A DNA stretch of 64,000 nucleotides, taken from NCBI RefSeq assembly GCF_007855645.1, contig NZ_CP042261.1, positions 2,065,501 through 2,129,500 on the forward strand. Direction: 5' to 3'. The position numbers and the translations under genes were made by a program. Under the pieces are notes generated by a model. That model did not search any database. It was given only the letters and a program-made list of their open reading frames with translations, and was not told where the DNA came from. The DNA comes from Qingshengfaniella alkalisoli (GTDB lineage Bacteria > Pseudomonadota > Alphaproteobacteria > Rhodobacterales > Rhodobacteraceae). This document shows positions 19,664 to 21,392 of the stretch, piece after piece (position 1 is the stretch's first letter; the number at the start of each line of letters is the position of its first letter).

Positions 19664-20254
19664 TTAGAAGTGGTAGGCCACTTTCGCGGTCAAGGTTGTG
19701 CCGCTCAGGTCTGCACCACTGTCGTCGAAATCGTCGAACTTGTGGTACAGGGCTTCCGCGCCAACCGACCACGCGTCCGTGACCATGTAGTCTACGCCTG
19801 CACCGGCTACCCAGCCCCAGTCGCTGTAGCTGTCGCCGCCGATCTCTGCGTCAGCGTAAGCACCACCAGCGGTTGCGTAAAGCAGCGTACGGCCCAGGTC
19901 GTAACCGGCTTTCGCCTTGATGCGCCCGATGCTGTCCAGGCTGCCCGCATCTCCGAATTCTACATCTGCCCAGTCATAGTCGCCTTCGATACCGTAGACG
20001 AACTTGCCGGAATTCCACAGGTAACCACCGTGCAGACCGCCGATCGGACCTTCGTCGTCGGCATCATCGGCTTCAGCCCAGGCGTAACCTGCTTGGGCAC
20101 CGACATAGCCCCCGGACCAAAGGCTTGACGCGACAACCGGAGCGACCGGTGTGACGGCAACGGGTTCGGGTGTCGGCTGTGGTTCAGTCAGGCCACCGGC
20201 CAAAACCGGTGCTGCGGACAGGGCAAGTGCGGAGGCAGTTGCGATAAGTTTCAT
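19664..20254 (-). CDS. Outer-membrane beta-barrel protein (Omp25/OmpA-like barrel family)
   Basis: A 196-residue protein with a signal peptide (MKLIATASALALSAAPVLAG) and a Pro-rich linker (TEPQPTPEPVAVTPVAPVV). The mature part shows alternating aromatic beta strands: WSGGYVGAQAGYAWAE, GGLHGGYLWNSGKFVYGIEG, LLYATAGGAYA and a terminal TAKVAYHF. The final Phe is the usual barrel-assembly signal. This is the small eight-stranded opacity-type porin-like family common in alphaproteobacteria. AAAGGAG lies 7 bp before the ATG and a strong terminator follows, so it is monocistronic. Its function beyond envelope structure is unknown. Confidence 0.85.
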   Translation of the reverse strand: MKLIATASALALSAAPVLAGGLTEPQPTPEPVAVTPVAPVVASSLWSGGYVGAQAGYAWAEADDADDEGPIGGLHGGYLWNSGKFVYGIEGDYDWADVEFGDAGSLDSIGRIKAKAGYDLGRTLLYATAGGAYADAEIGGDSYSDWGWVAGAGVDYMVTDAWSVGAEALYHKFDDFDDSGADLSGTTLTAKVAYHF

Positions 20255-20469
20255 TGCTCAACTCCTTTAATTGGTCACAGCCCAGCATGGGGCGATGACA
20301 GTCGCGATATAAGGAGGACTCGCGGAGAGGTTTAGTGTTCCACGATGCACGTTTTCGTGACTGATTTGAGCGGTTTTTAGCTTATCTTACATACCGTTAG
20401 GGCATCTTTTGTGCCAGTCGTGATAGCACGGGCAAGGATGCCTGATCGATCCAAGCCGCTGAAATGCTG

Positions 20470-20700
20470 CTAGAAAGAAGGGCCGCCCGATGGGCGACCC
20501 TTCCGAGAAGTTCAGGAGGCCGGGGTCGGTCAGGACCTTTGGCCAACACGGGTTGCGGCACAATGCCGCTAAGATTGCCTAGCGGCTGCCCCTCCGCGCT
20601 GTCCCGACGCCTTTCTCCAATGACTCTCTCAACACTGGATCACCTCCTTTCGATTGTTTCACATGAGTTCAGGCTGCCACCGAAATGAATTTTGTCAAAG
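20470..20700 (-). ncRNA. Unexplained leader-like or small-RNA locus with exclusive hairpins
   Basis: No ordinary gene fits the gap 20255-20750. Reading the minus strand in order: a TTGACA at 20698-20693; a Shine-Dalgarno AAAGGAGGTGATCC at 20650-20637 that pairs with the entire 3' tail of 16S rRNA; an 18-codon ORF; hairpin A (20565-20586, 7-bp perfect stem) whose stem contains the ORF's stop codon; hairpin B (20555-20569, 6-bp perfect stem) that shares five bases with A; and a GC-rich terminator-like hairpin (20477-20503) followed by a T-rich stretch. I could not identify a clear -10 box. The rest of the gap, 20255-20469, holds only the upstream region of the outer-membrane gene. Confidence 0.45.
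20579..20635 (-). CDS. Possible 18-residue leader peptide behind an extended Shine-Dalgarno
   Basis: GTG at 20635 starts MLRESLEKGVGTARRGSR and ends at TAG. AGGAGG lies 7 bp upstream, and the match to the 16S tail extends to AAAGGAGGTGATCC, far longer than normal. Composition gives no obvious amino-acid-specific control signal; Arg is frequent (4 of 18). Whether it is translated is not shown. The alternative is that the plus strand merely resembles the 16S 3' end. Confidence 0.35.
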   Translation of the reverse strand: MLRESLEKGVGTARRGSR

Positions 20701-20750
20701 AATTTTTACATTTTCGGACATGGCGCTGCTCAGATTTGCCTATATTTTAA

Positions 20751-21392
20751 TCATACCGCTTGAGCACGCAAACGATCCACGATCATCCGGAATGGGATCA
20801 GCGCGATGATGGCCAGCGACAGCTTTACCATCCAGTCTGCCACAGCCAGAGATGCCCAAAGCGGCACGATGGGGCCTGCGCCGAGAAGCGGGATCGCTTC
20901 GTTGGCCCAGCTGACATCATTGGCCGGTTCAAGAAAGGTCAGGCTTGCGGCAAACGCGATGGTAAAAAATAGCGTTGTGTCCAGGATCGAACCGACAAGC
21001 GTGGATGCAAGCGGAGCGCGCCACCATGCGCCCTTGCGCAGACGATCAAAGATCGCGACGTCTATCAACTGGGCGACGAGGAAGGCTGTACCGGATGCCA
21101 GCGCGATGCGAAGCGTGACCAGCGGGCCGATTTCGCCATGGATCTGGGTGCCGATGAAGGAACAGATGATGCCGATCACAAAACCCGCAAGCACGACGCG
21201 GCGCGCGGATTTGGGGCCATAGACGCGGTTCATCACGTCCGTGACAAGGAATGCTAGGGGATAGGTGAAAGCGCCCCATGTCAGCCACTGTCCGAAGAGG
21301 AACTGCACGAGGATGTTGGAGGCCACCACGATAGCGGCCATGGCAAGGATGCCAGGTAGAATGCGGGTCATGTATATGGTCCGTTTTATCAA
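20751..21392 (-). CDS. Queuosine precursor transporter (YhhQ/VUT family)
   Basis: A 213-residue membrane protein with about six helices. NILVQFLFGQWLTWGAFTYP, FLVTDVMNRVYGPKSARRVV and LASGTAFLVAQLIDVAIFDR are the conserved blocks of the COG1738 family, which takes up preQ0 or preQ1 for queuosine synthesis. The start is either M1 or M8 (MTRILPGILAM); both are plausible. I looked for a preQ1 riboswitch in the 60 bp upstream and could not support one. It is a single gene on the minus strand. Confidence 0.88.
   Translation of the reverse strand: MIKRTIYMTRILPGILAMAAIVVASNILVQFLFGQWLTWGAFTYPLAFLVTDVMNRVYGPKSARRVVLAGFVIGIICSFIGTQIHGEIGPLVTLRIALASGTAFLVAQLIDVAIFDRLRKGAWWRAPLASTLVGSILDTTLFFTIAFAASLTFLEPANDVSWANEAIPLLGAGPIVPLWASLAVADWMVKLSLAIIALIPFRMIVDRLRAQAV

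Follow-up and report, generated by a model that had tools for sequence, protein, structure and literature searches.

An apparent rreR small mRNA with a 17-nucleotide Shine-Dalgarno sequence in Qingshengfaniella alkalisoli

Layout of the locus and its match to the 16S rRNA tail

We analyzed a 64,000-nucleotide stretch of the Qingshengfaniella alkalisoli genome (contig NZ_CP042261.1, positions 2,065,501 to 2,129,500; hereafter the window), in which a short locus on the minus strand follows the gene for a queuosine-precursor transporter (assigned by TIGR00697 and PF02592) and precedes, by about 220 nt, a gene for an outer membrane protein (OMP). The locus begins with a promoter-like region (20698-20671) composed of TTGACA (20698-20693), a 16-nt spacer, and a weak −10 element, CAGCCT (20676-20671), preceded by TG; from the sequence, we infer a transcription start near 20664-20660. 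An extended Shine-Dalgarno (SD) sequence, GAAAGGAGGTGATCCAG, occupies 20651-20635 and includes AAAGGAGGTGATCC (20650-20637). Its last position (20635) is also the first base of the GTG start codon of an 18-codon mini-ORF (VLRESLEKGVGTARRGSR; 20635-20579), which ends with TAG at 20581-20579. The start codon lies in a hairpin, TCCAGTG/CATTGGA (20639-20616), that is part of a predicted SD-masking fold. The stop codon lies in the 5′ arm of a 9-bp hairpin, hairpin A (20586-20565), which is followed by hairpin B (20569-20555). In minimum free energy folds, a 3′ anti-SD element, GCCTCCT (20520-20514), can pair with positions 20648-20642 of the SD, and the adjacent CCGAC (20529-20525) can pair with GTCGG (20608-20604). 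The last feature is a terminator-like hairpin, GAAGGGTCGCCC-ATC-GGGCGGCCCTTC (approximately 20503-20477), which together with its T-rich tail spans 20503-20472. As a whole, 20665-20470 folds more stably than shuffled sequences (z of −3.7). The terminator-like hairpin had been proposed in a preliminary description of this DNA, and folding agrees with it, although a consensus scan of 20200-20900 called neither a terminator nor a promoter.

The 16S rRNA tails used for comparison were those in the records of Rhodobacter sp. CZR27 and Alloyangia pacifica, rather than that of the host's own 16S gene. Both 3′ ends read ...GGCTGGATCACCTCCTTTCT, and positions 20651-20635 are a perfect 17-nt complement of both; the preliminary description was thus accurate in placing a 16S-tail complement ahead of an 18-codon ORF on the minus strand. 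The second-longest match to the tail in the window is 9 nt by word counts, and a 17-nt match is expected by chance about 1e-5 times per window (4^17 estimate). When the genome was searched for AAAGGAGGTGATCCAG with at most one mismatch, this locus was the sole site, the 16S genes lying outside the searched sequence. We rejected a chance match or a stray 16S fragment: the match extends for 17 nt only, after which the sequence departs from 16S, and it is conserved family-wide.

A BLAST match was found in 153 of 198 host-family genomes, a few of the matches covering the terminator part only. Ninety of the 153 loci were examined (the 30 best and 60 taken down the list), and 89 of these, having the SD at no more than four substitutions, form the homologue set used below; L004 was excluded. 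With a model trained on 67 homologues, 170 of 199 host-family genomes gave a match, which is the opposite of the lack of conservation that the preliminary description had named as grounds for abandoning its proposal. Losses and divergent forms are pooled in the 29 genomes that have no model match. Five genomes (G184, G207, G544, G551, and G568) gave two matches each to the model or the pattern, which may be second copies or chance. No match to a 63-nt consensus-like query was found in plasmids, and L002, a second genomic place resembling the terminator part, is a look-alike hairpin only.

Unbroken complementarity to the 16S tail extends for 17 to 18 nt in 60 of the 89 homologues and for just 11 nt in 18, the invariance of the SD being partly due to selection of homologues with a near-SD pattern (≤4 substitutions). 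TTGACA with zero to two mismatches lies upstream in 88 homologues and is exact in 40 (raw counts, with no shuffled control). By a simple terminator rule, a hairpin followed by a T run was found in 71 homologues, and none was detected in the other 18.

Mini-ORF length, stop position, and hairpins

The mini-ORF is exactly 18 codons long in 85 of the 89 homologues and has 17, 20, 22, and 24 codons in the remaining four. It ends in TAG (37 homologues), TGA (35), or TAA (17). At the fixed stop position, letters 2 and 3 are individually often G, and GG at these two positions occurs in 0 of 89 sequences versus 14.1 expected (Fisher test, 1e-11, with related genomes counted as independent). Over codons 2 to 12, the ratio of amino-acid to silent changes is 0.59 in the ORF frame versus 1.15 and 1.06 in the other two frames. 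Over codons 13 to 18, it is 1.13 versus 0.81 and 0.83, and over codons 2 to 18 it is 0.84 versus 0.75 and 0.76, the ORF frame not being the most constrained. The number of codons is under tighter constraint than the C-terminal residues.

Hairpin A, analyzed in 66 of the 89 sequences, has 8 of 9 pairs changed on both sides, with a covariation score of 0.515 versus 0.248 in shuffled sequences and 83.3% paired cells versus 68.2%. Sliding the arms lowers covariation to at most 0.21, and the folding energy is −13.8 versus −8.2 kcal/mol in shuffles. With the stop codon fixed within a covarying hairpin, the position of the ribosome at the stop plausibly matters. Hairpins A and B have 20569-20565 in common and are mutually exclusive in this sequence, as the preliminary description had stated along with the position of the stop in the stem of hairpin A. 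The evidence on the switch between the two that it had built on this exclusion is mixed: hairpin A is conserved and covaries, and the two hairpins clash in 79 of 89 homologues versus 412 of 890 shuffles, whereas hairpin B itself is near the shuffle level (−14.0 versus −13.2 kcal/mol).

The start-codon hairpin has 96.2% paired cells, versus 28 to 58% for slid versions, and no pair in it has changed on both sides; it is conserved yet too invariant for covariation. Farther downstream, Rhodobacterales carry a 3′ element (CACCUCC, CAUCUCC, or CGCCUCC) that is predicted to be able to pair with the SD. The mean score of this pairing is 19.85, versus 14.99 in shuffles and 14.47 with a reversed SD, and 42 of the 89 homologues exceed the 95th percentile of shuffles. 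Outside Rhodobacterales, the SD-masking element does not reach a notable level in any of the peptide types described below (MSHG, 1 of 22; MSS, 0 of 14; MSHC, 1 of 17; SDR, 0 of 3; 14-codon, 0 of 5; others, 1 of 5).

Homologues in other orders

Outside the host family, the family model gave weak matches (23 to 31 bits) in 41 genomes of the class. The block AAGGAGGTG[AG][TC]C was at the right place, with a short ORF, in all 24 extra-family loci inspected. A 21-letter pattern with no more than two mismatches was found in 117 of 387 class genomes, and its reversed control was found in 7 of 387, indicating a small number of chance matches among the 117. In a sample of the phylum, the same pattern was found in 70 of 113 class genomes versus 5 of the 186 other genomes, each of which matched with two mismatches (reversed control, 6 of 299). 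The exact pattern occurred in at least 119 stretches of named genomes, some of which overlap the set of 89. Judging by their titles, we take 115 of these stretches to be alphaproteobacterial, and 4 are titled just Proteobacteria or Pseudomonadota.

Among the 119 matches listed, ORF length follows the type of peptide. The ORF has 18 codons in 17 of 17 loci of the MSR type and in 32 of 35 of the MSHG type, whose titles are mostly Sphingomonadales. It has 14 codons in 7 of 7 loci of the 14-codon type, five of them titled Bradyrhizobium. The MSHC/SHR/SDR type has 19 to 26 codons (32 loci) and the MSS type 21 to 31 codons (24 loci), with three others. The MSHG, MSR, and 14-codon types each use more than one stop codon (MSHG, TAA 17, TGA 17, and TAG 1; 14-codon, TAG 3, TGA 3, and TAA 1). 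The simple terminator rule detected no terminator in 26 of 76 named loci.

Among these matches, each of the 17 MSR-type loci adjoins the transporter gene, which is beside none of the remaining 102; in other orders, the extended-SD RNA has other genes as neighbors. At six Rhizobiales and Acetobacteraceae loci (L162, L171, L180, L205, L214, and L220), the upstream gene on the same strand presumably encodes an acetyl-CoA synthetase, to judge by resemblance. An Inquilinus contig that carries an extended-SD RNA also carries a Whalefall-1 RNA (RF01762; L210, 7753-7804).

Identity, gene neighbors, and mode of action

The locus appears to be rreR, a stand-alone small mRNA with an extended SD. The related rreB of Bradyrhizobium reportedly encodes 14 residues behind a 17-nt SD, binds to 30S subunits, and is weakly translated, and its RNA is said to be stabilized when the start codon is changed to a stop codon. 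The rreR of the Rhodobacter/Roseobacter lineage reportedly encodes 18 residues. We take rreR to be defined by an SD of at least 16 nt of complementarity, which is 17 nt here, and an 18-codon GTG ORF, which is present; the further criterion of conservation in Rhodobacterales has its counterpart in the 170 of 199 host-family genomes. The likeness thus comprises the SD of about 17 nt, the GTG start, and an ORF of 14 codons in Bradyrhizobium and 18 in the Rhodobacter/Roseobacter lineage, and no difference that excludes identity was found. Our 14-codon type agrees with the reported length of RreB. Both lengths, 18 and 14 codons, had emerged from our scans before we came across the reference to rreB and rreR, which supports the identification.

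A covariance-model scan also matched 20659-20479 to RF01867 ("caulobacter sRNA CC2171") along the entire model length (1-159), with 36.7 bits and an E value of 3.2e-6. CC2171 is reportedly a Caulobacter sRNA from work by Landt and colleagues in 2008. Letters 2-28 of the matched stretch, a span that takes in the SD and GUG, conform to the Rfam consensus, and 8 of 18 other-order loci with the same SD and a short ORF score above the cutoff. In contrast, the window is below it (gathering score, 75 bits), and Rfam types the family as an sRNA. No tRNA or other Rfam family exceeded its cutoff at the locus, and matches to sX14, SpF03, and sR5 were at chance level. The sole above-cutoff Rfam match in the window is a serC leader (RF00517; 31552-31603, minus strand, 69.3 bits).

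Relative to rreB/rreR, the present analysis adds the CC2171 link, the Sphingomonadales homologues, the constraint on stop position and hairpin, the SD-masking 3′ element, and the adjacency to the ribosome-rescue gene arfB. To our knowledge, none of these five is in the 2017 description of rreB and rreR. Nor did we find any of them among the open-licence papers listed, where the sole trace of rreB/rreR that we found is the citation of Hahn et al. (2017, RNA Biol 14:1353) in an excerpt of PMC7298713. CC2171/RF01867 appears in the Rfam 15 paper and in a Mesorhizobium sRNA list, both seen as excerpts, and a term search of the available parts of PMC2873474, PMC11005374, PMC12559287, PMC5082802, and PMC4842269 gave no passage on this RNA. 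Two other systems bear comparison, each as far as excerpts describe it. The rnTrpL/peTrpL RNA of Sinorhizobium is a dual-function attenuator RNA (PMC10117765); like the present RNA, it is a short alphaproteobacterial RNA, with a 14-codon ORF and derived from an attenuator, but it is leaderless and precedes trpE, whereas in the present RNA the SD is extreme and the downstream gene is not fixed. The extended SD motifs of Staphylococcus aureus (PMC13009471) likewise involve extended pairing close to the start codon, along with control through small leader ORFs, but they belong to another phylum, and no common RNA family has been shown.

We estimate a probability of roughly three in four that the locus encodes a stand-alone small mRNA, rreR, whose expression and decay are set by ribosome loading. 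The basis for this reading is in the sequence: the complementarity, its conservation, the fixed stop position, the covarying stop hairpin, and the SD-masking element. The predicted transcript would start some 10 nt ahead of the SD, immediately after the transporter gene, and end at its own terminator. Its 17-nt SD would base-pair along the full length of the free 16S rRNA tail, and a 30S subunit so captured would bind very tightly and start slowly at GUG. A ribosome that got past the start would read 18 codons and stop inside hairpin A, which it would have to open. In Rhodobacterales, the CACCUCC-like 3′ element could mask the SD, such that this internal anti-SD and the tails of free 30S subunits would compete for the SD. 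Ribosome loading would in this way set both the expression of the RNA and its decay ("ribosome-regulated expression"). The ribosome-dependent control envisaged in the preliminary description is retained here insofar as it concerns the fixed stop in a covarying hairpin.

An unlikely alternative is that the RNA acts in trans, either as a decoy for 30S subunits or a sensor of free ones, or in the manner of an sRNA, its 3′ CACCUCC element pairing with SDs in other mRNAs after a ribosome has occupied its own SD, the ORF serving to clear or time the ribosome. The SD block is common to orders whose peptides differ (the loci having been found through that block), the CACCUCC element is present in Rhodobacterales, and the 2017 work reportedly observed 30S binding. 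A grip on free 30S subunits, which the preliminary description had offered as its alternative, fits that reported binding of the Bradyrhizobium relative. However, acting as a decoy would take very large amounts of the RNA, and codons 2 to 12 retain some amino-acid constraint.

Alternatively, the 18-residue peptide (MSRxxLE[KR]GVGT...) could be the product that matters, with the SD doing no more than setting its level. Residues 1 to 12 are conserved in Rhodobacterales, codons 2 to 12 have a coding-like pattern, and the other two frames contain stops in 29 and 32 of the 85 fixed-length rows, the ORF frame being open by construction. We nonetheless consider a peptide function doubtful. The peptides of other orders have little in common beyond M-S-x, residues 13 to 18 are free of amino-acid constraint though their number is fixed, the whole ORF is unremarkable next to the other frames, and part of the nucleotide constraint is structural. 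Since the peptide differs between orders while the SD and the ORF length are held, we infer that the function resides in the RNA and in its being translated more than in the peptide.

Control of the OMP gene by attenuation, as the preliminary description had proposed, is rejected: this gene is not a conserved neighbor, the upstream gene belongs to the protein cluster of the window's transporter in 87 of 89 homologues, arfB follows in 74, and other orders have other genes. A broader form of the idea, in which the position of the ribosome in the mini-ORF gates the terminator and so controls the OMP gene here and arfB in most relatives, is very improbable. The mini-ORF, stop hairpin, and terminator are in the right order for it, and the excess of A/B clashes over shuffles is in its favor, as is the arrangement of arfB (identified by NF006718 and PF00472 on the L055 protein), which in those 74 homologues lies on the same strand, starting 169 to 349 nt after the SD (within 120 to 420 nt), with an SD-like 4-mer in front of it in only 17. 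Yet arfB is more distant in 3 of the 89 and was not found in the 1.7 to 2.2 kb downstream in 12, the window included. In the host genome, the RNA persists at C1:2086150 with arfB about 66 kb away at C1:2019320. Hairpin B is near the shuffle level, and the mini-ORF lacks a stretch of codons specifying a single amino acid. The neighbors in other orders differ as well. Among the 119 matches listed, arfB lies nearby at 13 of the 17 MSR-type loci and, outside this type, at L200 alone.

At L200, from a Hyphomonadaceae metagenome-assembled genome and the single such case among 101 named loci outside the Rhodobacterales type, arfB lies upstream on the opposite strand and is divergent, at −589 to −176 from the SD. 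This arrangement may mean that the neighborhood of the RNA and arfB is older than the gene order.

A further point against attenuation comes from the sequence in front of arfB. In the position profile, the dinucleotide TA peaks exactly 12 nt before the ATG (−12; 22 of the 74 homologues, versus 0 to 4 at other offsets), where a −10 element of arfB itself would be expected if its mRNA were leaderless; stringent scanning of the upstream region for −10 sites gave a negative result (8 of 74 versus 6% in shuffles). This pattern suggests that arfB has its own promoter and, in part of the relatives, a leaderless mRNA, in which case read-through from the small RNA may be unneeded. Examples of these loci in relatives are L058 and L043, and the host's own arfB is in L095. 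The ribosome-rescue factor ArfB may often come from leaderless mRNA in Rhodobacterales.

Beyond the stand-alone small mRNA that we favor lies a wider and quite speculative idea, that rre and CC2171 form one class-wide family of translation-gated sensors of free 30S subunits. In Rhodobacterales, the 30S tail would displace the 3′ anti-SD, the freed CACCUCC would pair with the SDs of other mRNAs, and the adjacency to arfB would be held since both serve ribosome supply or rescue.

What Rfam lists as an sRNA is found class-wide and is probably a small mRNA that is translated from the strongest Shine-Dalgarno sequence possible. The fixed ORF length, the free C-terminal residues, and the covarying stop hairpin suggest that the site at which the ribosome stops matters. 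The family would offer a natural test of how an over-long SD affects initiation and of whether cells gauge their free 30S subunits.
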